Below are positions 39,201 through 54,584 of a stretch of 64,000 bases of DNA, one piece after another; within the stretch, counting starts at the first letter, position 1, and each line of letters begins with the position of its first letter. This stretch comes from Arenicola marina (taxonomy: Eukaryota > Annelida > Polychaeta > Arenicolidae), in assembly GCA_964019135.1 (NCBI GenBank), contig OZ025260.1:16610254-16674253 (forward strand). Reading direction: 5' to 3'. The position numbers and the translations under genes are program-made. A model generated the notes under the pieces. That model was not told the origin of the DNA, did not search any database, and worked only from the letters and a program-made list of their open reading frames with translations.

Positions 39201-42200
39201 ACAGGGTACTGGCTGTGACTTGATCACTAAACTAGCCCGAAACAGCGGCACATCAGTGCTAACGTAGATAGAACGGCTGCGGCATAGAGTTTGCAGCGCA
39301 GTAGGCCATCTTACTGGCCCGATATCATCAATCTTATGCTTTGTTAATATGTATTATTAGTGTCATTATTAAAAGAAGTAAGACGAAAAACTATAATTAA
39401 CAATCTGTGGTTCGTCCACGCTGCGCTGCGGGGACGTTATGACCCATTAGCGAGAGGGGCGCGTCATGATTTGCGTGTGTTATTTCGTTATTTCACACTG
39501 GGCCCCATTGGACCTTACTTACCGATGTTAGGGGCTCCCTGGGGGGCACGCGAGGCGCCTCCTCGCCGCCCCTCTCTAGTGACCGCCGCGGGGCCGGCAC
39601 CGGGGGTTGGACCCCATTGGCGGCGGGTCGCGCGGTCCCACCGCCTGACGAGGGGGCAGGGGCAGGGGACGAGGGTGACCCCATCATCATCAGCGCGTCC
39701 AGGAACTTATTACCGGCCATCGTCGGCTGTGTACCACCCTCCCCGGACGGTGCGGCGGCGGCAGCGGCGGTGGCGGCGGCCTTCACCTTGGCCCCGGACC
39801 CGGACCCGGATCCTGTGCGCCTGGACTCCCGGACGGACACGGTCTTCCGAACTGCGGCGTGGAGCCTCCGTTTGTTGTGGCGATCCAAGGTCGACGTCTT
39901 CAGGAAAAAGTTGAGTCCCGCGCCGGAGGTTTTGGACCGGAGCAGCCGCGACAGGTCAAGACTCTGGAGCAGGTCGGCGTCCTTCTTCAGGGACTTCAGC
40001 AACGTCTGGACACGAGAGGGACGAAACAGTCAGTAACTAGAGAGAACAGGAGGAGGAGGAGGAGGAAGGAGAGGAGGAGGGGGAGGAGGAGACAGTCGGT
40101 AACTAGAGGGAACAGGAGGAGGAGGAGGGAGAGGAGGAGGGGGAGGAGGAGACAGTCAGTAACTAGAGAGAACAGGAGGAGGAGGAAGGAGAGGAGGAGG
40201 GGGAGGAGGAGACAGTCGGTAACTAGAGGGAACAGGAGGAGGAGGAGGGAGAGGAGGAAGGGGAGGAGGAGACAGTCAGTAACTAGAGGGAACAGGAGGA
40301 CGAGGAGGGAGAGGAGGAGGGGGAGGAGGAGACAGTCAGTAACTAGAGGGAATACGAGGAGGAGGAGGGAGAGGAGGAGGGGGAGGAGGAGACAGTCAGT
40401 AACTAGAGGGAACAGGAGGAGGAGGAGGAAGAGGAGGAGGGGGAGGAGGAGACAGTCAGTAACTAGAGGGAACAGGAGGAGGAGGAAGGAGAAGAGGAGG
40501 GGGAGGAGGAGACAGTCAGTAACTAGAGGGAACAGGAGAAGGAGGAGGGAGAGGAGGAGGGGGAGGAGGAGACAGTCAGTAACTAGAGGGAACAGGAGGA
40601 GGAGGAAGGAGAAGAGGAGGGAGAGGAGGAGACAGTCAGTAACTAGAGGGAACAGGAGAAGGAGGAGGGAGAGGAGGAGGGGGAGGAGGAGACAGTCAGT
40701 AACTAGAGGGAACAGTAGGAGGAGGGAGAGGAGGAGGGGGAGGAGGAGACAGTCAGTAACTAGAGGGAACAGTAGGAGGAGGGAGAGGAGGAGGGGGAGG
40801 AGGAGACAGTCAGTAACTAGAGGGAACAGTAGGAGGAGGGAGAGGAGGAGGGGGAGGAGGAGACAGTCAGTAACTAGAGGGAACAGGAGAAGGAGGAGGG
40901 AGAGGAGGAGGGGGAGGAGGAGACAGTCAGTAACTAGAGGGAACAGTAGGAGGAGGGAGAGGAGGAGGTGGAGGAGGAGACAGTCAGTAACTAGAGGGAA
41001 CAGGAGGAGGAGGAGGGAGAGGAGGAGGGGGAGGAGGAGACAGTCAGTAACTAGAGGGAACAGTAGGAGGAGGGAGAGGAGGAGCGGGAGGAGGAGACAG
41101 TCAGTAACTAGAGGGAACAGGAGAAGGAGGAGGGAGAGGAGGAGGGGGAGGAGGAGACAGTCAGTAACTAGAGGGAACAGTAGGAGGAGGGAGAGGAGGA
41201 GGTGGAGGAGGAGACAGTCAGTAGCTAGAGGGAACAGGAGGAGGAGGAGGGAGAGGAGGAGGGGGAGGAGGAGACAGTCAGTAACTAGAGGGAACAGTAG
41301 GAGGAGGGAGAGGAGGAGGGGGAGGAGGAGACAGTCAGTAACTAGAGGGAACAGTAGGAGGAGGGAGAGGAGGAGGGGGAGGAGGAGACAGTCAGTAACT
41401 AGAGGGAACAGGAGAAGGAGGAGGGAGAGGAAGAGGGGGAGGAGGAGACAGTCAGTAACTAGAGGGAACAGTAGGAGGAGGGAGAGGAGGAGGGGGAGGA
41501 GACAGTCAGTAACTAGAGGGAACAGGAGGAGGAGGAGGGAGAGGAGGAGGGGGAGGAGGAGACAGTCAGTAACTAGAGGGAACAGGAGGACGAGGAGGGA
41601 GAGGAGGAGGGGGAGGAGGAGACAGTCAGTAACTAGAGGGAACAGTAGGAGGAGGGAGAGGAGGAGGTGGAGGAGGAGACAGTCAGTAGCTAGAGGGAAC
41701 AGGAGGACGAGGAGGGAGAGGAGGAGGGGGAGGAGGAGACAGTCAGTAACTAGAGGGAACAGTAGGAGGAGGGAGAGGAGGAGGGGGAGGAGGAGACAGT
41801 CAGTAACTAGAGGGAACAGTAGGAGGAGGGAGAGGAGGAGGGGGAGGAGGAGACAGTCAGTAACTAGAGGGAACAGGAGAAGGAGGAGGGAGAGGAAGAG
41901 GGGGAGGAGGAGACAGTCAGTAACTAGAGGGAACAGTAGGAGGAGGGAGAGGAGGAGGGGAGGAGACAGTCAGTAACTAGAGGGAACAGGAGGAGGAGGA
42001 GGGAGAGGAGGAGGGGGAGGAGGAGACAGTCAGTAACTAGAGGGAACAGGAGGAGGAGGAGGGAGAGGAGGAGGGGGAGGAGGAGACAGTCAGTAACTAG
42101 AGGGAACAGGAGGAGGAGGAGGGAGAGGAGGAGGGGGAGGAGGAGACAGTCAGTAACTAGAGGGAACAGGAGGAGGAGGGAGAGGAGGAGGGGGAGGAGG

Positions 42201-45200
42201 AGACAGTCAGTAACTAGAGGGAACAGGAGGACGAGGAGGGAGAGGAGGAGGGGGAGGAGGAGACAGTCAGTAACTAGAGGGAACAGGAGGAGGAGGAGGG
42301 AGAGGAGGAGGGGGAGGAGGAGACAGTCAGTAACTAGAGGGAACAGTAGGAGGAGAGAGAGGGGGAGGGGGAGGAGGAGACAGTCAGTAACTAGAGGGAA
42401 CAGTAGGAGGAGGGAGAGGAGGAGCGGGAGGAGGAGACAGTCAGTAACTAGAGGGAACAGTAGGAGGAGGGAGAGGAGGAGCGGGAGGAGGAGACAGTCA
42501 GTAACTAGAGGGAACAGGAGGAGGAGGAGGGAGAGGAGGAGGGGGAGGAGGAGACAGTCAGTAACTAGAGGGAACAGGAGAAGGAGGAGGGAGAGGAGGA
42601 GGGGGAGGAGGAGACAGTCAGTAACTAGAGGGAACAGGAGGACGAGGAGGGAGAGGAGGAGGGGGAGGAGGAGACAGTCAGTAACTAGAGGGAACAGGAG
42701 GACGAGGAGGGAGAGGAGGAGGGGGAGGAGGAGACAGTCAGTAACTAGAGGGAACAGGAGGAGGAGGAGGGAGAGGAGGAGGGGGAGGAGGAGACAGTCA
42801 GTAACTAGAGGGAACAGGAGGATGAGGGGGAGGAGGCAGTCTGTAATTACAGGGAACAGGAGGAGGAAGAGAAGAAGGAGACAGTAAGTAATTAATGGAG
42901 ACAAGAGGAGGAGGAGGAGGAGTCGCTTTTCCGTGAGGCAGTTACTAGTAACGAAGTCCGCAACGCTCTTGTATCCCTGAAGAACAGCTCACCAGGATGG
43001 AATTCGCTAATTAGAAACCAAAATGATTAAAACGGTTATAGATTCCCTAACACAACCCTTAGCTCTTATAGCAAAGAATACAGTCAATCTCTCATTTAGT
43101 CACTAACCCCCTGCCCCTACACCCACCCCCTTGCTTCCCCCCATCCCTGCATACACGCACTCATGCCCCCGACTCCGCCCCCACTAACGTCCCCCCGATC
43201 CCTGCATACACACTCATGCCCCCACTCTCCACACACACACCCTAATGTGCCCCCCCATCCCTGCATACACGCACTCATGTCCCCCACCTCCTGACCCCCC
43301 CCCCCCCCACACACACACAACACTCACCCCTGTGGAGTTGACCCTCCTGAGCTTGGAGAAGGCCGCCATCGGGATGTCTTCTCCAGTCAAGTCCATCGCC
43401 TCAGGGGCCAACATGTCTAAAACACCCAACCACAGAGTGGGTCCTTGTATAATATATAGATATATATTATATATCGCAGTAATAATCACTGGGTAACGAA
43501 TGCGGCCTTGACGAACTAACACTCAACGACATAACAACGTATAGCACTCAACGACTTAACAACATCGCACTCCACGACACTGAGGGAGGCCGGGGAGAGA
43601 CAAAACTCGAAACCACTGGCGTACATTGGCCACCACTGGCGTACACTGGCCGCCACGGGCGTACACTGGCCGCCACCGGCGTACATTGGCTGCCACCGGC
43701 GTACATTGGCCGCCACCGGCGTACATTGGCCACCACTGGCGTACATTGGCCGCCACCGGCGTACATTGGCCACCACTGGCGTACATTGGCCACCACTGGC
43801 GTACACTGGCCACCACTGGCGTACACTGGCCACCACTGGCGTACATTGGCCCCCACTGGCGTACAATGGCCACCACTCGCAGCCACGCGACGACAATCGC
43901 AATGACTTCCAGGCTAATGTGAGGCTTCTCCCACAGGCAGTCTGGACTTGGAGCAATTTGGGAGCAATTTGGGACTCGTATAAAATATATATGCGACTAG
44001 TCTAAATACCAGACGCGATATTTTACTTTTCTTCTTCTCTAATTCTTCCTTCGTGCAACCACAAACGTCTATAGTCTCTAGTTGGTTGTATATCTAGGAC
44101 GCTTTAACCACTTTTGGTCATATCACATCAATGGGAGAAGGAAGGGAGGGTGGAGCCATGTTCCTGGGGGTAACCCCCTACTCTTTGCAAAGAAGGACAT
44201 GGGATCTTTATCCTGCGACCCCACAGACATGGCCACAGCGGGGCTCGAAACATCGATCCACGTGCCGTTAGACACTCAGGGGGGCAGAGCACTCAAGGCG
44301 AGCGCCCCAACCCACTGAGCTATCGGCCCCCTCTACTCAGTATTGATTCGCAAATTTCGTTCTTTAACAATTTGACAATTTGTCAAGACACCCGGCCATA
44401 CCTATGTTGGACTCGTTTTCGATCCTCTCGTAGATGTAGTACAGGTAGGACATCATGGAGAGGCGCACTGTGGCGTTGGGGTTTTGGTTACCGGCCAGCT
44501 GGTCTACAGACAGCATCGGCAACACGTCCATCTCTCGGTCCAACAACTCGAAGGCCTGGTGAGGGGGGGGGGGGAGGAGAAGCCAACACTAGTGTCACAA
44601 AGTCACTTGTTTTATCTAAAAGTTGACATATATTAATACTTTCAGGGTTTCAGTATTTACTCTTGTTTGATTTAAACTCAACTTACTCTTTATGGCACGA
44701 TATAGCCTTAGAGGCTGAAAGTGCCGTCAGAACCCAATCAAATCAAATCAAATCAAATCACAAAGCCAAGGGTCCATTCTCTCCGAATCAGTGGAACATA
44801 AACATCGCTCCAATATCTAACCATTGATTTGTTTGCTCTGTGTCACCCATGCGCCTGGTTTATAGACTGTTATATATGGGAGTTTATCAACCACTCGTAC
44901 ATCTAAGACACAGGCAGTATGCATGCTAGCAGGAACGAGGTGATTTCCCAAATAACGCAGGAAGATTGCTCCCACAAATTCAGCTTGTTGGTAAACAATT
45001 CTGAATGCTGACGTCACAAATGCAGTTAGCCCCAGTTATTTGTCTGTCGAACGGACAACAATGGACGGAGGGACACGGGCCAGGTTCGGTTTTTGCCGGT
45101 CCTACAGCCACAGAACTGGGGTTAAAATGCAGTATGGCAGCAGAGATGCAGTATGTTGGCATATCTGCAAAAGTTATCCTGGTAAAGGGATGAAGTTAAT

Positions 45201-48200
45201 GGGCGTAAATTAGGCGCTGATCGCAACACAGACCGTCTTCGTGCTACGGTTCAGGGGCCGTATTCATAATCGCCACTAAGGGTACGCCACTAGACTTAGC
45301 GCTAAGTGAAAGATTTCTCGAGCAATTATGGGCTTCAAGAACATAAGTATTCACGCAAGAAGTGGATTTCTGAATTAAGGAATCCCCCCTTCGCATACAC
45401 ATAGGTGCAGCATTACTGTTCCGCGACTCACCAGTTTAAGGTTGCCTCGAGCATCATTCTTGTTCAACTCATTCAGTTTCCTGGAGAAACAACACACGCA
45501 TCTGAACAACCTATTGCCGTATAATGACGAATTTCGAGGTGTTATATACCTTAACGTAACCTCAAGACCCTCAAGACCAGCTATTGAAATTTAGAAATGC
45601 AATGAACGAAAAAATATACCTGCCTTGGTTTAAAAAGATGCTTAAAAGACAAAATAAACTAGGATAAATATAATTCCACTATTACAATAAAAACAATAAC
45701 ATGTAATTGGAAGTTTTATCGCTCAGAGTAACACCGGGGACCACCTTTCGTCAACAAGTGTATTGGGACCCACACACGTTACAAAGATGTGGGGCCTATT
45801 TTCACAATATAATTCAGCCTTAATAATGGAATACTCTACCCTAAACGCTAAAGAGTAACACCAAGGGGACACTTGGTATGTTGTGTACACAGAGCGAGGT
45901 GTACACCTGGGACAGAAAGTTGGTTGTATATTCAGGACGCTTTAACCACTTTTGGTCATATCGCGTCAATGGGATAAAGAAGGGAGAGCGGAGCCATGTC
46001 CCCGGGGGTAACCCCCTACTCTTTACGAAGAAGGACGTGGGATCTTTATCCTGCGACCACACAGACATGGCCACAGCGGGGTGCGAACCACCGATGCACG
46101 CGCCGTTAGGCTCTCAGGTGGCCAGAGCACTCAAGGCGAGCGCTCTAACCCACTGAGCTATCGGGCCGGCCCTGGGACGGAAGGTCAATAGCATGGTGCC
46201 GTACACGGTGTTAGGTCTGTAGATCTCCACCAAGGCACACAGCCCGAGGCCGTCGTTCCACGACTTGGCCAGGTCTGTGATGTGCACCAGGCCGCTGTAG
46301 GGGCGGAGCTTCTCCTTGAACCACCCCAGAAGTCTGTGGGTGTCAATGGAACCACCTGGCGGTGAAAAAGATAACTAAATTCTGAATTAGGGTAAAACTA
46401 GTTCCATATAATGTAACGTAGTCCGCTCCGATATGGGGCCCGTTAGCGGTAGCCACAGCGGCTTCCTCGCAAGACAACGGTAAAACATACATTAGACAAT
46501 AGGACTTTATTTGGAGTTACTTGTAAACAGTATCTGGATATATCTGTTAAGATAAAATAGTTTGAAAATGATAGTTTAAGTGGTACCTACTATTAGTACA
46601 TCACTATTACAGCCATATAATTATTCATTTATATAAATTTATTAGATCATATTGAATTTAACCGCGACAACTTAGTAAGCAGTACTTTGTATCGGTAAAT
46701 GTCTTCAAGTTAACAGAAAGCTAGTTGGTTAGCATTGAAACAGCCAGACGGAGGGGTGGGGTGGGGCGGGGGGACTTGCCTCTGACTAACTGTCGCTTGT
46801 AACCCTGGGGTGGAGGCTCAGTTCCACGTGATGCAGTCAGCGTTTCAGTGTCCTTGACGTCGTCCTTGCTATAAAGGTGAGAGACGTCCTTGGCGCTGAC
46901 GGCGTTTGTACCAAGTCTTGTCCCAAGCTTCATGCCTTGGTACCTGTACAAGGCAGAACAACACCCACGTGAACCATCTCAATATATGTTCGTGTTTGAA
47001 GAGCTTAGGCCGAAGCGTGCTTAAGGCGAAAAGCTAAATATAACAGTCAGTATAGCATGTGGCAGGATCCCAAACGAATATAGCACCTCAACATATCCAT
47101 ATATACAACTACATAAGGTATATCACACAGAGAGTGATCCGATCTCCTCACGACGAGCAATGCACTTCCGATATTCATAAGATCACAAGTTATCATCACA
47201 ACAAGAGTTCTTGATATCAGAAAATTTATCTCTTGTATATGAACAGTTTAGATTTTCATATCAACCATTTACTTTCGACATCCTTGTTTAAGTTTCATAT
47301 CAACTCCAAATCCCCGAAATCAACAACTTGCGTCTTAATATTTACAATTCAGTTCTTGTTACCAGCAAATCAGGTCTTCTGTCAACGTTTATCAAGTCAC
47401 TCACGTCTTCATGAAATGAGCAAACTTACATGTGTCTAACCCCCATTCTATGATACAAAAGTCCTATATCGGGCTACATCAATATTTCAGGAGTACATAT
47501 AGTGATGGCTTTCCATTGTGTGGTTGCCACGGACCTGGTTGCCGGGTCGAGGGTACACGGCCTGTTCCGCTTGTGCATGTCCGGAGCGGTCTGTGAGAGG
47601 ACTCGCAGGGTGCTCTCCCTCTCCGCCAGGACCTCCAGGGGATCCCGATCACCCAGACACCAGTTCCGGACCAGCCAGGCTGCATCCAGTACCCCCAGAA
47701 ACCCCCGCGCGATTCCTGAGCCTGTAGGCCAAAACGGCTGAAACAAGACAAAAAATAGAAATGACTGAGTTTCGACGTCAGTTAAGAATAGGGTCAAGCA
47801 CGGGAGAAACTCTATAATAAATTAAAAACAGTTATTCAAATCATATAAATGAAATTGTGGTCAAGGTTCTTCCAGGTTAATGTGAACCATTGTTACGCCA
47901 TAGCTCATACCAACAGACAATTGCCCACAATGCTCACCTCCAACAGACAATCGCCCACAATGCTCACCTCCAAGAGACTGTCGCCCACAATGCTAACCTA
48001 CAGCACTGTCACCCACAATGCTCACCTACAACACTGTCGCCCACAATGCTCACCTAGAGCAGACTGTCGCCCACAATGCTCACCTCCAGCACTGTCGCCC
48101 ACAATGCTCCCCTCCAACAGACTGTCGCCCACAATGCTCACCTCCAACGGACAATCGCCCAGAATGCTCACCTCCAACACTGTCCCCCACAATGCTCACC

Positions 48201-51200
48201 TACAACACTGTCGCCCACAATGCTCACCTCCAACCGACAATCGCCCACAATGATCACCTCCAACAGGCAATAGCCCACAATACTTACCTCCAACAGACTG
48301 TCGCCCACAATGCTCACCTCCAACAGGCAATCGCCCACAATGCTCACCTCCAACAGGCTGTCGCCCACAATGCTCACCTCCAACAGGCAATCGCCCACAA
48401 TGCTCACCTCCAACAGGCTGTCGCCCACAATGCTCACCCCCAACAGGCAATCGCCCACAATGCTCACCTCCAACAGGCAATCGCCCACAATGCACGACAG
48501 CAGACGTTTTCCGTTGACCTCGCGCCCCAGGCACCCGCTCTCAGCTTGGTGCAGCGCCGCGAAGTCAAAGATGGCGACGTCCTCGTTACCATGGTGATCG
48601 ATGGCGAATTCTATCTCTGGGAACTTGGACAGGGACGAGTTTTCGACCTCCCAGGCCGTGCGCGCTATCTGCTTGACGCTCGCCAGGAGGCGGGGGCGGT
48701 CCACGTTATCGGGGGCGAACAGCTGACGGGTGTCCACGTGGTCCTAAGGGGCGAAAATACACATTAAACTGGGGCGGATCCAGGAATTTGAAAAGAGGGG
48801 GGAGGGGCGAACAAAATTGCGACCGGGGGATCCACCAATTTTTTGACGACCGGGAGGGGGGGGGGGGGAGGGGGGTCCACGCTGCCTCAAATAGCGTTCT
48901 TTGCCCAAAAGGGGAGGGGGTCCACGCCCGAGATGGCCTAAATTTCGCATTGAAAAAAGGCATTGTTCCTCAAAAAGGGGGATGTCCGGACCCCTGGACC
49001 CCCCTGGATCCGCCATTGTCATTAAAACCACTGTACAAACACGTCATGCTCGTCTGATCAATACTCCAACTGAGCATGATGTCACATATTTCAGTATAGT
49101 AGAAACGGGCCCTGGAATACGGTCCAATATTGACAAGATTTCGATTTACTCAGGGTTCGAATTAAGCAGGTTCTCTCGAGTAAGGTAAAATATGGGGGTT
49201 TCTCGATAGATTTTCTCAGCATCCAAGATAGGTGTCCCATGTGATATAAATTGAACCATCCATTTAACCTTCCAAAAATATTTGAAGTGTTTTTTCATAA
49301 ACTACCTTTAAGTAAGCAATAGTAAGAATTAATATAGTATTAGACACTAAGGGCGTGTTCGATTTACATGAAACCAGAACCGGTTTGCCGAACTGACTGT
49401 TTGACAGAAGAACCGAAACTGGTTTGCACGAAATCGTGAAACTACAGAGAGAGCTGGTTTCACGGTTCGGTTTCGAGGGTAGAAAATGAAACAGACGGAA
49501 TTTTATAATGCTGGCACAATCTCATAAGCACAATATCAGGACCCATTCCATTGCCTAAATACATGTTGAAACTGTAAACAAATGAAACCATGCGTTCGCC
49601 TGCATGTGGGCAAACCGTTGAAACCAGTTTCAAAAGCGGTTTCGGTTTCCCGTCGGTTTCCGCTAAATCGAACACGCCTTAAAATTTAATATGTTGAGTC
49701 GTTGCTGATTTCACTAGCACCCGATGAACTCACCCGCTTTAAGATGCCCGCCTGGATGAGTCCTTTCTTCTTCGCAGTCATAACAAAGTAGTGCGTCTCG
49801 TCCTTGAAATAGACGAAGTTTTCGAACTCGAGGCCCGTCAACCTCTGCAGCTCGCCGAAGAGATCTGGTCGCTTGATGGGGATGACCCCGGGGATCTCCG
49901 CCAGCACACTGTCCGCCCGACCCCCCTGTCGCTTCAGGTTAGCCGTGATGGCAATGGACAGCTTGCCCCGCATGCACTTCCGGGCAAATCCTGCGACGCG
50001 CAATAAATAAGAAATCAAATCAAAATAATGATTGATTGGTTGGTTGTATCTGCAGGACACTTTAACCACTTTTGGTCATATCGCGTCAATAGGAGAAGGA
50101 AGGGAGTGTGGAGTCATATCCCCGGGGGTAACCCCCTACCCTTCGCGAAGAAGGGCGTGGGATCTTTATCCTGCGACCACACAGACATGGCCACAGCGGG
50201 CCGCGAACAACCAACCTACGTGTCGTTAGGCTCTCAGGTGGCCAGAGCACTCAAGGCGAGCGCTCTAACCCACTGAGCTACCAGGCAAAATAATGAATGC
50301 GTCACGAAAGATTGCAGAAAATAGACACTGACCTTATTTGATTCGGGAGAAAAGGATATATGTTCGTGTTCATAAGGGGGCTATGGCTGATCCTGCCCCT
50401 CACCCACCCATATTTTAGTTAAATCTACCCTCCCCAACCCCACTGGCCCTCTCCCAGAGGCCTACGTTGTGGGAGATTGATTTATTTATTTATGTAGGAT
50501 GACTTGTTTGAATGGGAAGGTCAAGGTAGTGAGGAGCTGTGTCTCCGGGAGTAACCCCCTACTCTTGGTGAAGAAAGACATCGGATCTTTATCCGGTATG
50601 ACTGGCCTAGCAGAGCACACTCGACAATATCCGAACGCGCTACCAACTAGGGCATGGGGTCCCACCACGCACGTTTTGGAACAGCAAGTGACGAGAACAA
50701 CAGTTTTGTCAAAACAAAATTCTCAGTATCGAATATCGATTTTTCACGACGTTCCGTGTCGCTTTTTTTTCTAAAATGCCACTATCTGTGTCGATGTCGC
50801 TTTTCCAGATCCTCGGTGTTGCAATTTGGGGGTCAATGTCCCATGTCGACTTTTTCAAATATGCCTGTGTCGCGTGTCGCCATTTACCCCTTCCACACCC
50901 CAAGATGCACATCAAAGGACAACGCCGAAGTCCGTCCTAAAAGAGTGTCTCCTGTGAAGCTACTTAACATGTTTTTATGTGGTGTGAAGGGCTCAATGAC
51001 CCTACGTCCAAGTGCGTCTTGTATTTCCCATCGATTACGCACTTGAAGCCCACTTGGGTCGGTCAGTTCCGCGTTAGACACTTACACCAGAGGTAAATGT
51101 GATTCTCCGGATTATAGGAGACGATCGATGTCATGACATTCCGGCTAATTCCAGTCAGATGTTGGCGGTGACAGACAGACATCGCGAAGGGTAAATGGAG

Positions 51201-54200
51201 GACCCAACGCAGTGACTCAACCAAGAACACCTACTGGTGACGACTTATACAGCTCTCATACAAAGTTGCACACCCGAAACTAATAAATCAATGGGGTGCA
51301 TAATGAAATAATACCAACTGGATATATATAATAACTTCATTAAACATAATCGTATATGTATCTTTACGTAACTTTATATTACATTTATTATATACTATAC
51401 TATTATAGTCATTTATTTCCATACCTAAACTATTTCTCGTGCCATCAGCTCCGACTATGACGTCCACATTCATGTCGTGTACTTCCTGTATCACGGGACT
51501 CGTCTGCACCCTCCAGCCTGACCCTGAAATAACAGAATAATGAAACCTGTGATGCCAATACTGTATGCTTATTACTCATGGCCAACGTCTTTAAATAAGC
51601 ACATAACTTAGGTATTTGACTTCATTATCAACCCTTTTGATGTCAAGCACCGTATTTACTTCCGGTGTGTGCGGTTCACACATATACCCGTAGTTTAACT
51701 GCACAGTGACATGAAATCAATATCTTTATTGTCGGAGAGACAGCAACTTATAATAGACCTCTAGATTAAGGTTTATGTTGGTACATTATATTGTAAATAA
51801 TCATGTCATACCTGTGGAGGCATTGGGCGGCAAAAGCTTATCAAATTTTACAGGCGTCTGGATTTGAACCCCGAGTATCAGCGCCACCTTCAGGAGAATG
51901 AGTTGCAGACGTCGAATACCTGCAGAGTGAAAACGAGTCATGTAATATAACATAAGAGTCGTTTAATCTCTGAGGAATTAGGATAAACATTGCTTAATTT
52001 CGTCACCAAGATTTATACAGAAAACGTTCGATCTGTATCACAGAAATGTTTAGCCCTGTTTTTCTCACGGTTAAATTCGTTCCAATCGTTTGCATGTTAT
52101 TGTTTGCATTTGGTGATCTGTATTTTGCAGACAGACCTGGTGCCTAAAGTTATGTATATATCTATAATACTTGGAGAGTAAACAATTACATGACATGTAA
52201 TACCAAGAACAAGGACACGATATCTCCCAAATTGTGTACGGGGAAAACCATCGTTCAGATGATGCGTGAAAGTCGTCAATGAGGAAAAGGTCACGCCCAT
52301 GAGTAATAGGAAGTGTTATCGTCTGCATAGGGGATGGGACAAACCCATACGCGATTTTATGACCGGTAGGTTTTGTCGGGTGGATAGAGCATGCTCTAGT
52401 CGCTAGGCGTTAAACCTTCGCATCATAAAAGCCACTGACCAATCAATGCATGCCTTTCTATCACGCGATACAAGCTGAATCAGGTGATTGGGTAATAAGG
52501 AAATAACCTTAGAATAATCCCATCGTGTGTACTGTGAAAAGCCAATGGGGGGACTTACAGGAAAAACCTCTCGTCTAGACCGGGCTTAAGGACAACAGAT
52601 ACATATCAGACGTGGCGGCTTCGCTCAATTAATACACTAACCCCCATTGTTTATTCACTATTGTTAACTGTACCTGTTGAACGAGAGAGAGATCATCACA
52701 ATATGGTTGTAGACTCATCGATAACAGTCAAAGTATCGCTTTCAATTTAGGTTGGACGCTTCAACCTGTCTACAGGTCATATCGCTACAAAATAGAAAGA
52801 GGATCCGGCCACGTCTCCGCGAATAATCTTTATCCTGCATGCACAAACATTGCACAGGTGCCTAGCAGCGTACATTCGACAATAGTCCGACGCGATACTT
52901 ACTATATGTCTATAGGCCAAGGGGGTGAATACTCACGTTACCCATTGATTCAGTGGCAGTTTTCAGCGGCTGGCTGCAAGCCCTATATATATACTTACTG
53001 ACGTGGTGTAAAGCGCCGGTGCAGAACTTGGGGTGGAATATCTTGGCCCCGATGGCTCTGAGGTCATCTATGGCGAACGGCCAAAGGTGAAGGACGTTGT
53101 TTCTGGCGATGTAGTCCCTCATCTCCAGGACGACCACGTGGGCTCCCAGCAGGGCACACTCGATGGCCATTCTCAACCCGCAGGGTCCGCCGCCCACTAT
53201 CACCACCTATCGGAGACATCGCGCAACAACACATGCATGCAATGGCATATTGTTTGAACAAATAATATCGCATTGCAATATACTTTTTGTTTCGTACCAT
53301 TTCGAATGATTAATTTGAACAGCATATATTCATTTACGATATAGCCTACCTTTCGTATGATTCGTATGAACAAGGTATATCGGATGGGGTATGTGGAGTT
53401 GGGGAACTGCCTATGAATATTCATGAGAGTCATTGAGTGCTGATTAATTTTGTTATATTCTTCTTACAGTCACTGATAAGCCACGAGGGACCGGGTGAGG
53501 AAGGACTTCAGTGTACATCACAGGTGACATTAAAATAAGCCGTGACAAGGAATCAGGGACAATATATACTACTAAACTGTGTGGGAATTCAGTATTACGC
53601 TTATGGCATTAAATGTAATTGTTACCTGTATGATACGTGAGCGCTGAACTAGGTTTCGGCAATAGGTCCGTCAGTTTAATCAGTTGATAATATGTCCACC
53701 AGGATAAACCAGCAATACGTGCATCTGACTCATCAGGTAATGTGTCTAACCGACTAACCCGGCAATACTTTATGGCTCCGATAATACGTGTACCCGACTA
53801 ACCCGGCAATACGTTATGGCTCTGATAATATGTCTAACCGACTAACCCGGCAATACTTTACGGCTCCGATAATATGTCTAATCGACTAACCCTGCAAAAC
53901 TTTATGGCTCCGATAATATGTCTAACCGACTAACCCGGCAATACTGTATGGTTCCGATAATATGTCTAACCGACTAGCCCGGCAATACTTTATGGCTCCG
54001 ATAATATGTCTAACCGACTAACCCGGCAATACTGTATGGTTCCGATAATATGTCTAACCGACTAGCCCGGCAATACTTTATGGCTCCGATAATATGTCTA
54101 ACCGACTAACCCGGCAATACTCAATCGGATACTCCGGTAATACGTCTAACCGACTAAGATCTAGTAATATGTACACGCCTCTCCTCCTACTACATTGTAC

Positions 54201-54584
54201 AATATATACTACCCAACATTCCAAGGCTTATGCACATTGTCTAGTTATTGCCTGAGTGCTACTCACATTGTTGCCCCTGCAGATGGCGCCCTCGCGGTAC
54301 ACCCCTGGGGTGGCCGCTCGCTGGTCCAACAGCTTCCACAGCCCATCAGCCTCGTTACTGCGAAGACGAGACTTGATGTTCTGGTAGAATTGTCCCTCGC
54401 TCTTAGCGGGATCCACTCCCAGCGACACACAGAGTTCAGCGAAGGTCCGTCTCACATTTTGAAAGGTATCCGCCTTAACGAGGTCCCTGAAGACCTCTTC
54501 TGGATATTTCATGTTCGCCCGATCGCCTGGGTGAGGAATGCGAAATGCGTCAAATATCGTCCTGCGGCCATATCCGCGATTCAT
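31304..54584 (-). CDS. MICAL: MICAL, F-actin-oxidising flavin monooxygenase (25 coding exons)
   Basis: Complete gene rebuilt by hand. The 25 exons total 4,005 nt, every junction keeps phase, and the product is 1,334 aa. Domains in order: FAD monooxygenase (about 1-490), with the Rossmann motif GGGPCG at 111-116, 'GADG' at 236-239 and the second FAD motif 'VGDCLLE' at 416-422 followed by [10 protein letters not shown] domain (about 545-655); Ala/Ser/Pro-rich linker (693-990); LIM domain with ligands C1002, C1005, H1023, C1026, C1029, C1032, C1055, H1058; acidic stretch; bMERB coiled coil (1172-1334). By family knowledge, MICALs use NADPH and FAD to oxidise actin methionines and disassemble F-actin downstream of semaphorin/plexin, and bMERB binds Rab GTPases. 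The ATG has A at -3 and an in-frame TAA 6 nt upstream. Introns hold SINEs, MITEs and minisatellites. Family assignment is very secure; exon 8, 9 and 15 boundaries are the least certain. Confidence 0.95.
31664..31778. repeat. Foldback element in a MICAL intron
   Basis: Two ~39-bp arms (GGCTGATTTCCCGAACGCAG on the left and its near-complement on the right) around a ~36-bp loop. Part of one arm also occurs at 61,797-61,840. Lies between exons 24 and 25. Confidence 0.85.
32118..32191 (-). CDS. MICAL: MICAL exon 24 (bMERB)
   Basis: Acceptor tacttcag|GGTGAA, donor CAGCAG|gtacac. Encodes '[20 protein letters not shown]', a coiled-coil helix in phase with both neighbours. Confidence 0.88.
32627..32723 (-). 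CDS. MICAL: MICAL exon 23 (bMERB)
   Basis: Acceptor ctgacag|GCGCCA, donor CTACA|gtaaga. Encodes '[20 protein letters not shown]', matching the family's LLxxWFxLVxxKNxLVRxEsxL segment. Confidence 0.92.
33150..33302 (-). CDS. MICAL: MICAL exon 22 (bMERB start)
   Basis: Acceptor attaacag|ATGATG, donor AAAG|gtatcc. Encodes '[13 protein letters not shown]' and '[14 protein letters not shown]', the first bMERB (DUF3585) helix, with the family's LExxGxxLEkxiR pattern. Confidence 0.92.
33745..33932 (-). CDS. MICAL: MICAL exon 21 (acidic repeats)
   Basis: Acceptor tttgcag|AGGATC, donor CCTG|gtagga. Encodes three imperfect 'EDTEGE' repeats, then '[20 protein letters not shown]'. The repeats reflect a short CCCTCTGTGTCCTCG tandem in the + strand. 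Confidence 0.85.
34239..34314 (-). CDS. MICAL: MICAL exon 20
   Basis: Acceptor ccgctag|ATGGCG, donor TGGCT|gtgagt. Encodes '[19 protein letters not shown]' and 'EIRQWL', ahead of the acidic exon. Confidence 0.82.
34533..34725 (-). mobile_element. tRNA-derived SINE, truncated tail
   Basis: Same family. The tRNA head is intact apart from a deletion between the boxes, and the distal ~60 bp of the body is missing. In the MICAL intron between exons 19 and 20. Confidence 0.85.
35060..35075 (-). CDS. MICAL: MICAL exon 19 (16-nt microexon)
   Basis: Sequence ATTGGTGACAAAACTG (IGDKT plus one base) lies between acceptor ctccacag and a perfect donor gtaagt. Exon 18 ends in phase 0 and exon 20 starts needing one base, so 16 nt is exactly what the frame requires. 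Confidence 0.8.
35681..35763 (-). CDS. MICAL: MICAL exon 18 (LIM domain, last two ligands)
   Basis: Acceptor atctttcag|CCGCCT completes a Pro codon split C|CC. Donor is GAGAAG|gtgtgt. Encodes '[20 protein letters not shown]', supplying the last C and H ligands as CxxH. Confidence 0.92.
36305..36440. repeat. Degenerate GAAAAATCGACA repeat
   Basis: ~35-bp imperfect units GAAAAATCGACATTCGACAC. An inverted relative lies at 50,700-50,880 (TGTCGATGTCGC type). Both are in MICAL introns. Confidence 0.75.
36504..36693 (-). CDS. MICAL: MICAL exon 17 (LIM domain, first zinc finger)
   Basis: Acceptor gacaccag|GCGGCG, donor CAAC|gtgaga. Encodes six of eight LIM zinc ligands: CVLC, then H and C in 'FHRAC', then 'FRCGYC'. 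The spacing C-x2-C-x17-H-x2-C-x2-C-x2-C is canonical. Confidence 0.95.
36720..37360. repeat. GGTGTGGGTGGT minisatellite upstream of MICAL exon 17
   Basis: G/T-only array on the + strand; higher-order units are built from GGTGTGGGTGGT and GTGTGTGGGGTGTGTCGGT. It begins 27 bp upstream of the exon 17 acceptor. Confidence 0.97.
37681..37929 (-). CDS. MICAL: MICAL exon 16 (Pro/Ser/Arg linker)
   Basis: Acceptor gccaacag|GACGGA, donor AGAAAG|gtacgg. Encodes '[20 protein letters not shown]', likely disordered and rich in SP sites, ending '[13 protein letters not shown]'. Confidence 0.85.
38447..38539 (-). CDS. MICAL: MICAL exon 15 (linker)
   Basis: Donor CAACAG|gtatgt. Acceptor ttctacag|GGTCTG is preferred; ccctacag|TGTACA, 36 bp upstream, is an in-frame alternative. 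Encodes '[20 protein letters not shown]'. Symmetric exon. Confidence 0.75.
39050..39109 (-). CDS. MICAL: MICAL exon 14 (linker, 60 nt)
   Basis: Acceptor gttttccag|AAAGGC, donor TCACAG|gtacgt. Encodes '[20 protein letters not shown]'. It is symmetric (phase 0/0), so it could be skipped without breaking the frame. Confidence 0.82.
39523..40005 (-). CDS. MICAL: MICAL exon 13 (483 nt low-complexity linker)
   Basis: Acceptor cgtgtccag|ACGTTG, donor ACATCG|gtaagt. Encodes residues 693-853: '[20 protein letters not shown]', then (GS)n, a poly-Ala run, and Pro/Ser-rich sequence with 'VPAPRRS', an SH3-ligand-like motif. The upstream intron is a purine-rich minisatellite on the + strand that begins beside this acceptor. 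Confidence 0.85.
40022..42905. repeat. ~57-bp purine-rich minisatellite upstream of MICAL exon 13
   Basis: About 50 units of 54-60 bp: GACAGTCAGTAACTAGAGGG, AACAGGAGGAGGAGG, then GGAGGA-type runs. In the MICAL sense each unit reads TTACTGACTG, a ~45-nt pyrimidine tract and CCCTCTAG. Unit lengths are multiples of three, which keeps long spurious frames open. Confidence 0.97.
43110..43322. repeat. C-rich tandem repeat beside the MICAL exon 12 donor
   Basis: Three to four units of about 60-70 bp containing CCATCCCTGCATACACGCAC and TCATGCCCCC. G-rich in the MICAL sense, directly downstream of the exon 12 donor. Confidence 0.85.
43328..43416 (-). CDS. MICAL: MICAL exon 12 (linker)
   Basis: Acceptor tgttttag|ACATGT completes an Asp codon split G|AC. 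Donor is CAGGG|gtgagt. Encodes '[14 protein letters not shown]' and '[11 protein letters not shown]', a linker without a named domain. A G-rich repeat on the transcript strand starts within a few bases of the donor. Confidence 0.85.
43618..43885. repeat. 20-bp minisatellite, GTACATTGGCCACCACTGGC type
   Basis: About 13 units in the MICAL intron between exons 11 and 12; two main variants (CCACCACTGGC, CGCCACCGGC) alternate. Confidence 0.95.
44081..44330 (-). mobile_element. tRNA-derived SINE
   Basis: Same family; A and B boxes present at the right end. Target repeats are not clear. In the MICAL intron between exons 11 and 12. Confidence 0.88.
44402..44555 (-). CDS. MICAL: MICAL exon 11 (CH domain, C-terminal part)
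   Basis: Acceptor cctcaccag|GCCTTC, donor ACATAG|gtatgg. Encodes '[16 protein letters not shown]' and '[16 protein letters not shown]', the final CH helices. Confidence 0.92.
45252..45385. mobile_element. Truncated MITE related to 11,901-12,164
   Basis: Shares GGGGCCGTATTCATAATCGC and 'GACTTAGCGCTAAGTG'; the right half is missing. Lies in the MICAL intron between exons 10 and 11, beside the exon 10 donor. Confidence 0.8.
45432..45480 (-). CDS. MICAL: MICAL exon 10 (CH domain, 49 nt)
   Basis: Acceptor tttctccag|GAAACT, donor AACTG|gtgagt. Encodes '[16 protein letters not shown]', the CH helix preceding 'AFELLDRE'. Confidence 0.9.
45920..46170 (-). mobile_element. tRNA-derived SINE (full length, TSD present)
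   Basis: On the minus strand it starts GGCCCGATAGCTCAGTGGGT, with A box TAGCTCAGTGGG and B box GGTTCGnnCCC-like (here GGTTCGCACCC), then a ~150-bp tRNA-unrelated body. Flanked by 14-bp repeats CCTGGGACAGAAAG / CCTGGGACGGAAGG. Inserted 34 bp downstream of the MICAL exon 9 donor. Confidence 0.9.
46205..46355 (-). CDS. MICAL: MICAL exon 9 (CH domain, first half)
   Basis: Acceptor caccgccag|GTGGTT. Encodes '[15 protein letters not shown]', '[15 protein letters not shown]' and 'YRPN', typical of a calponin-homology domain. Donor ACCGT|gtacgg is weak, but it is in phase and gives the usual family spacing to exon 10. A SINE lies 34 bp into the following intron. Confidence 0.85.
46780..46943 (-). 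CDS. MICAL: MICAL exon 8 (probable GC donor)
   Basis: Acceptor tgtacag|GTACCA. Encodes 'VSHLYSKDD', matching the family's VxxLYD segment between the monooxygenase and CH domains. The only good donor in phase is AGAG|gcaagt, the consensus of rare GC-AG introns. A weaker alternative in the same phase is CAGG|gttaca. Confidence 0.8.
47535..47737 (-). CDS. MICAL: MICAL exon 7
   Basis: Acceptor tgtttcag|CCGTTT, donor ACCAG|gtccgt. Encodes '[15 protein letters not shown]' and '[10 protein letters not shown]', then 'LDPATR', closing the monooxygenase core. Confidence 0.93.
47915..48490. repeat. 30-bp minisatellite carrying the MICAL exon 6 donor
   Basis: About 20 units of 30 bp, some 28 bp, built on CCAACAGGCAATCGCCCACA plus ATGCTCACCT (+ strand). 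Each unit repeats, on the minus strand, codons 'IVGDCLLE' followed by gtgagc. It runs across exon 6's 3' end into the intron. Confidence 0.95.
48468..48743 (-). CDS. MICAL: MICAL exon 6 (second FAD motif; donor lies in a minisatellite)
   Basis: Acceptor ccccttag|GACCAC. The shortest donor, GGAG|gtgagc, gives phase 0 and joins 'VGDCLLE' directly to 'PFWPTGSG' of exon 7, exactly as in other MICALs. The last eight codons and the donor form the first unit of a 30-bp minisatellite, so longer in-frame forms are possible, for example to 48,288. Confidence 0.9.
48769..49018. mobile_element. 250-bp hAT-like MITE in a MICAL intron
   Basis: Inverted ends around GGCGGATCCAGG, flanked by 8-bp direct repeats ACATTAAA / TCATTAAA (one mismatch), as in hAT transposons. 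The interior is rich in G runs. It begins 26 bp upstream of MICAL exon 6. End-like fragments also occur near 31,024 and 60,760. Confidence 0.78.
49351..49679. mobile_element. 329-bp Harbinger-like MITE in a MICAL intron
   Basis: Ends GGGCGTGTTCGATTTA and, inverted, AGGCGTGTTCGATTTA, flanked by TAA on both sides, the TWA-type target of PIF/Harbinger. Internal sequence holds imperfect palindromes around 'GAAACCAG' and 'CGGTTTCG'. Lies between exons 5 and 6. Confidence 0.82.
49734..49990 (-). CDS. MICAL: MICAL exon 5
   Basis: Acceptor gtcgcag|GATTTG, donor AGCGG|gtgagt. Encodes '[11 protein letters not shown]' and '[20 protein letters not shown]', the most conserved core block of the MICAL monooxygenase. 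Confidence 0.95.
50035..50286 (-). mobile_element. tRNA-derived SINE
   Basis: Same family and orientation as 45,920-46,170. Target-site repeats AAAATAATGATTG / AAAATAATGAATG. Lies 44 bp upstream of the MICAL exon 5 acceptor. Confidence 0.9.
50490..50670 (-). mobile_element. Diverged SINE related to the main family
   Basis: Keeps 'GAGTAACCCCCTACTCTT' and 'GGATCTTTATCC' of the family body but has a different head. In the MICAL intron between exons 4 and 5. Further relics at 52,745-52,905 and 61,035-61,100. Confidence 0.65.
51425..51523 (-). CDS. MICAL: MICAL exon 4 (DG motif)
   Basis: Acceptor atttcag|GGTCAG, donor TTTAG|gtatgg. Encodes '[15 protein letters not shown]'. The 'GADG' segment corresponds to the DG motif that contacts FAD and NADPH in this hydroxylase fold. 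Confidence 0.93.
51812..51919 (-). CDS. MICAL: MICAL exon 3
   Basis: Acceptor ctgcag|GTATTC completes a Ser codon split A|GT with exon 2. Donor is ACAG|gtatga. Encodes '[18 protein letters not shown]', matching the conserved monooxygenase helix. Confidence 0.93.
52999..53206 (-). CDS. MICAL: MICAL exon 2 (FAD Rossmann motif)
   Basis: Acceptor ccgatag|GTGGTG, donor GTCA|gtaagt. Encodes '[14 protein letters not shown]', the GxGxxG dinucleotide-binding motif, followed by 'NVLHLWPF' and '[10 protein letters not shown]', both MICAL hallmarks. Confidence 0.95.
53690..54150. repeat. ~44-bp minisatellite in MICAL intron 1
   Basis: About ten units of AATATGTCTAACCGACTAAC, CCGGCAATACTTTATGGCTC, CGAT. 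Alternate units differ at ACTTTATGG/ACTGTATGG, a higher-order pattern. Confidence 0.93.
54267..54584 (-). CDS. MICAL: MICAL exon 1 (start codon, residues 1-106)
   Basis: The ATG at 54,584-54,582 is preceded by in-frame TAA. Donor is AAT|gtgagt. It encodes the N-terminal part of the monooxygenase, including '[13 protein letters not shown]', ending just before the Rossmann motif. A 5' non-coding exon further upstream is possible and was not identified. Confidence 0.92.

Follow-up and report, generated by a model that had tools for sequence, protein, structure and literature searches.

The MICAL gene and the array at its sixth exon

The stretch of DNA considered here (hereafter the window) comprises 64,000 nucleotides of the annelid Arenicola marina (contig OZ025260.1, positions 16,610,254 to 16,674,253), and its minus strand carries a MICAL gene in which one exon ends inside a minisatellite that repeats this exon end together with its 5' splice donor. 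The exons of the gene were placed by tblastn with seven homologues, and their ends are those of the matches (54506-54264, 53206-52997, 51917-51816, 51536-51426, 49997-49740, 48743-48468, 47737-47534 and 46344-46204, the first being found with four of the seven). They lie in order and encode a flavin adenine dinucleotide (FAD) monooxygenase and a CH domain, with the VGD(S/C)L(L/V)EPFWP block of the MICAL family, and once joined they match the MICAL3 structure 6ici of the PDB with E=4.3e-132. A further CH-like piece near 44588 is known as an open reading frame only.

The array itself is recovered by Tandem Repeats Finder (TRF) at 47910-48493, with a period of 30, 19.8 copies and a match of 87%. 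When the minus strand is split from 48491 down to 47910, 14 units of 30 bp and five of 28 bp are obtained, followed by a partial unit. The 30-bp unit consists of the final 24 coding nucleotides of the exon (IVGDCLLE) and the initial six of the intron (gtgagc). The exon contributes these 24 nucleotides to unit 1, and the array is otherwise almost wholly intronic. Among the 19 complete units there are 15 distinct sequences (units 1, 4 and 6 share one sequence, units 3 and 5 a second and units 10 and 16 a third), and near the exon two types of unit alternate, one with GATTGC (Cys) and the other with GACAGC (Ser). The existence of the array and the composition of its unit are thus as the first-pass annotation had described them. 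Its count of about 20 donors was generous, 15 of the sites matching the donor consensus MAGGTRAGT at 7 or more of the nine positions, all within ~530 nucleotides. The coordinates are collected in Table 1.

Table 1. Features of the MICAL locus in the window, and the survey loci with a repeated donor.
Feature	Position	Strand	Basis or remark
MICAL gene region mapped	46204..54506	-	tblastn; FAD monooxygenase, beginning of the CH domain
MICAL exon, sixth found in the gene model	48468..48743	-	276 nt, phase 0, ends IVGDCLLE
Next MICAL exon	47534..47737	-	begins PFWPTG after acceptor ttgtttcag
Mirage minisatellite	47910..48493	-	TRF and unit lists; units of 28-30 bp, 19 complete, 1 partial
In-frame, open part of the array (donors +30 to +240)	48228..48467	-
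Distal, more diverged part with 28-bp units; frame lost	47910..48227	-
First 5' splice donor, gtgagc, probably the one used	48462..48467	-	U1 duplex -9.7 kcal/mol; homologue join
Later donor with the strongest U1 pairing, gtaagt, in frame at +180 nt	48282..48287	-	U1 duplex -12.6 kcal/mol
Donor-side survey loci: L025, L032, L045, L046, L058, L064, L078, L080, L091, L092, L095, L101, L090

In amphioxus, arrays of this design are known as mirages and have been described in Adh3, the globins BflGb6 and BflGb9, TnC and PGBD5 (PMC3087553, PMC3902484). Their units measure 10-72 bp in Adh3 and 150-160 bp in the globins (PMC3087553). The MICAL array is a mirage minisatellite: its unit spans the exon-intron boundary, the splice signal is repeated, and the 28-30 bp lie within the reported range of unit lengths. 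The first-pass annotation, which had referred to the amphioxus mirages, named the right phenomenon, although the host here is an annelid. The mitochondrial contig of the same assembly (C762, 15,942 bp) speaks against amphioxus: AAA is read as lysine in the COX1 motif YSTNHKDIG, the tRNAs and genes stand in the order common among annelids, and among the 120 matches listed COX1 is nearest to that of the phyllodocid polychaete Pilargis wolfi (91% identity), many of the named matches that follow being phyllodocid as well.

It should be pointed out that the array lengths are those of one assembly and one haplotype. The 867-Mb assembly contains no second copy of the locus at high identity. Another 11 places give weaker DNA matches to the array, with 66-80% identity; the three that were inspected (L005, L006 and L007) are all minisatellites, and no exon was placed there. 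Two of them, L005 (C12:38.2 Mb) and L007 (C12:12.4 Mb), have a donor-like core in common with the MICAL array (GGTGAGCATTGTG, GGTGAGCACTGTGG). Tandem repeats altogether make up 14% of the window (TRF score of at least 50).

We now consider which of the donors is used. The first one reads GAG/GTGAGC, with the intron G at 48467, and it gives the join VGDCLLE/PFWPTG. This join, which the first-pass annotation had called the standard of the family, agrees with all of the best 120 of 482 homologue matches, the set used throughout, and with 6ici. The block [VI]GD.L.EPFWP is unbroken in 120/120 and an insertion at the join is present in 0/120, many of these homologues being vertebrate and some closely related to each other, with insects and the annelid Paralvinella also represented. 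We therefore consider it quite probable, from the comparison of sequences, that the exon-nearest donor is used and that the remaining copies are discarded with the intron.

Copied exon ends in myosin and kinesin genes

To put the MICAL array in context, we now turn to a survey of exon loci in the same genome, which were found with the Pfam profiles of the myosin and kinesin heads and not selected for repeats. It took in 70 of the 77 myosin matches and 30 of the 133 kinesin matches. Five loci were excluded, one being truncated (L048) and four being stop-ridden and situated on small contigs (L049, L051, L052 and L057); in these four the TRF scan of the survey found no boundary array. Kinesin-like matches with several stops are present on the small contigs G000:C390, C504 and C536, possibly as pseudogenes or foreign DNA. 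The final set consists of 95 loci, 70 of myosin and 25 of kinesin, which fall into ~34 gene regions when grouped by coordinates. In the first 60 of the loci, tandem repeats account for ~24% of the bases (TRF score of at least 40).

Copies of the exon end with its donor continue downstream into the intron at 13 of the 95 loci, a count that comes from a myosin-dominated sample of a single genome. TRF detected twelve of these, and the thirteenth, the two-copy duplication at L090, came from a word search, the results of which were listed per locus for donors only. Exon starts with their acceptors are repeated upstream at 4/95 loci (L089, L110, L114 and the degenerate L073), all detected by TRF, L073 only in a separate scan. 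Together these 17 boundary-repeat loci are spread over 13 of the 34 gene regions, with ~2 to ~25 boundary copies per locus within the stretches examined, the flanks that bound these counts being 260 bases for 40 loci. The largest number is found at L025 (G000:C12:10142802-10145975), where a myosin exon end, ...NNYLLEK/gtaggc, is repeated in ~25 copies of a 62-bp unit that run beyond the end of the stretch. The array at L080 (G000:C11:42554764-42555415) has an 85-bp unit, in which the copied exon end is followed by what appears to be a GC donor (CAG/GCAAGT), and at L092 the unit holds only ~4 exon bases.

The same tendency can be measured independently of the exact exon boundary by the recurrence of words. 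The 16-mer taken 20 bases before the end of the exon match recurs within 170 bases downstream at 11/93 loci, one of which is L042, and 16-mers taken 80-120 bases before the end recur downstream at none (0/86 to 0/94). On the acceptor side, upstream recurrence is seen at 4/93 loci for the word that starts 10 bases into the match and at none for words that start at least 60 bases in. L042 was left out of the count of boundary arrays because its boundary is unclear, and five further candidates (L054, L020, L039, L065 and L074) were rejected because the array is purely intronic.

Splicing from the next copy would be damaging at all of the donor-side loci. A switch to the next donor would preserve an open frame at 0/13, a frame shift or a stop standing in the way each time. 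At two of the loci the spacing is divisible by three (42 and 81 bp), with a stop in each, and at L092 the verdict derives from the 28-bp period, the script having found no later copy there. At these loci at least, a working gene therefore requires that the next copy be skipped. The acceptor side gives the same picture, with the nearest upstream copy shifting the frame or bringing a stop at 4/4 loci. At L032, L058 and L095, moreover, the match of the next exon starts at the next profile position (90/91, 243/244 and 374/375, respectively), and there is thus no room for extra residues. Later donors frequently match the first one. They equal it in U1 pairing in 23/24 cases at L025, 13/14 at L045 and 14/16 at L064, and exceed it in 3/9 at L032 and in one case each at L046, L064 and MICAL. 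Strength alone can therefore not explain the choice.

Choice among the serial donors of MICAL

Several observations weigh against the exclusive use of the exon-nearest donor. The first concerns the donor at +180, which is both stronger than the first one and predicted to be 6 times more accessible. The duplex energies in Table 1 are those of pairing with ATACTTACCTG, the standard 5' end of U1, which is also the end found in the U1 genes of this genome, and the predicted accessibility is 0.181 for the +180 donor, the highest of 17 sites, vs 0.028 for the first donor. Secondly, the donor hexamer shows no clear excess of conservation: in the 14 full 30-bp units it is kept in 80/84 column cells vs 308/336 for the other columns, a slight excess, and the latter become 285/294 once the three columns that separate the two unit types are excluded. 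Thirdly, MICAL is the sole donor-side case of 14 in which a switch to the next donor would preserve an open frame, and it may for this reason differ from the others. At two of the survey loci, L032 (+69) and L064 (+195), the third copy is in frame and open. Finally, when a donor is duplicated, splicing in cell extracts often proceeds from the copy closest to the acceptor, which would predict the opposite choice; a literature search for this preference found nothing. As an observation apart, the U1 small nuclear RNA genes of this genome lie in tandem at G000:C12:556678-593202, with 41 equal-scoring matches that are mostly 616 bp apart.

These points lead to the alternative that the donors are used in a regulated manner, yielding MICAL isoforms with 10 to 80 extra residues, chiefly 60, beside the FAD-binding GD motif. 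A switch to any of the donors at +30, +60 and so on to +240 would preserve an open frame, which the 28-bp units farther out then break, as the first-pass annotation had stated. Its claims about the gtaagt at 48287-48282 hold as well, in that this donor outscores the first one and would add exactly 60 residues (180 nucleotides, or 60 codons); of the sites computed it is also the strongest and has the least predicted structure. With the two survey loci where a third copy is in frame, and with human IFI6, which splices from two downstream repeat units to give three mRNAs (PMC4526556), such usage would have its parallels. However, not one of the 120 homologues carries an insertion here, an insertion would break a block whose spacing is constant among them, and the next donor is workable at none of the other 13 donor-side loci. 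Comparison of the in-frame units 2-9 with unit 1 gives seven non-synonymous and six synonymous codon changes, which are few and mutually dependent, and the former include an Asp-to-Tyr change in the GD motif and a Leu-to-Arg change. There is thus no clear coding constraint on the in-frame units, and we regard regulated use of the later donors as unlikely.

Another option is that the copies are never spliced but serve as a landing strip for U1, which, bound to the intron, would help to define the exon. A downstream 5' site with U1 can act as an exonic enhancer (PMC8724738), and the array offers 15 good U1 sites. The donor columns are slightly better kept than the mean of the others, but this excess is gone without the three type-specific columns, and the many unit lengths and very different first donors of the survey loci are what a neutral process predicts; a role of this kind is quite improbable. 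An assembly artefact or a collapsed repeat, which could be suspected as the array length rests on one assembly, is very hard to reconcile with units that differ from each other to the extent described above, with the lack of a second high-identity copy of the locus in the genome, and with the same design at 16 TRF boundary arrays elsewhere (some of ~2 copies) and the duplication at L090.

We return, then, to the use of the exon-nearest donor. In the mechanism that we propose, a tandem array would have grown from a short stretch straddling the MICAL exon-intron boundary, with 24 exon and six intron nucleotides, and the spliceosome would take the donor at 48467 and ignore the later copies. If exon definition pairs the acceptor and the donor that are nearest to each other across the exon, downstream copies of the donor and upstream copies of the acceptor would both be tolerated. 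The two kinds of array are most simply accounted for if the site nearest to the exon prevails on either side of it, and the in-frame 30-bp period of MICAL would then be a matter of luck, an accident of length.

The exon copy also seems to take part in the turnover of the array, because units 4 and 6 reproduce unit 1, most of which is coding, without a difference. GDS is encoded by 11 of the 20 MICAL units and GDC by the exon itself. Among the homologues, serine occupies this residue in 114/120, including Paralvinella, and cysteine in six. Either the array may have overwritten the exon end, or the serine may have arisen in the array by coincidence. A broader and decidedly tentative proposal is that in this annelid lineage exon ends have been amplified genome-wide as the innermost-pair rule hides the copies from splicing, that sequence continues to pass between the arrays and the exon, whose coding end is rewritten in this way, and that occasional leakage to in-frame later donors would offer new protein segments on which selection could act.

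Relation to known systems

The closest relatives of these arrays are the amphioxus mirages. As here, their units span the exon-intron boundary and repeat the splice signal, and both kinds of boundary are affected; mirages at 5' and 3' boundaries are said to leave regular splicing undisturbed (PMC3087553, PMC3902484). The difference is that the present cases comprise an annelid MICAL gene and 17 of 95 sampled exon loci. Length instability is a further trait that is reported for amphioxus. In human IFI6 (6-16), too, serial splice donors come from repeat units that follow an exon, but there two of the downstream units are used (PMC4526556), whereas the later donors here are only candidates. Internal tandem repeats in human segmental duplications resemble ours in being of minisatellite size, with a mean unit of ~30 bp, and in lying at exon-intron boundaries. 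They differ in that they concern new introns and alternative transcripts of recent primate paralogues (PMC2812944), compared with a conserved gene with a family-standard join here.

Two other parallels were considered and rejected. The minisatellites of earthworm metallothionein are first-intron repeats that the portion of the report used does not describe as exon-boundary arrays (PMC12783039). In human TERT, the variable number tandem repeat VNTR6-1 is located in intron 6 and the 38-bp INS1 extension in intron 4 (PMC11830802), so that on this description it is no mirage.

As to IFI6, its repeat length keeps the reading frame. The same is seen at MICAL, where the frame stays open from +30 to +240 and is lost after the first 28-bp unit.

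The literature searched contained no report of mirages in annelids, which is weak evidence of novelty as most subscription papers lie outside it. The kind of array is already known, and the counts suggest that its frequency in this genome is the new and surprising part, provided that the sample is fair. If the sample is representative, mirages are not a speciality of cephalochordates, and the ends of coding exons can join in minisatellite turnover. If copied exon ends are as common in the genome as the sample suggests, splicing has to single out the correct copy again and again. The choice of the spliceosome among identical serial donors has mostly been studied with constructed minigenes. The present genome offers natural cases, such as L025, where a switch to the next copy would break the frame of a motor protein.

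Two further features were noted. In the window, positions 40019-42832 hold a 60-bp array with ~48 copies and a match of 93%. Elsewhere in the genome, P450 matches of near-equal score and span, with no stop codons, lie in a run at G000:C18:9.3-10.3 Mb, which suggests a recent local expansion.

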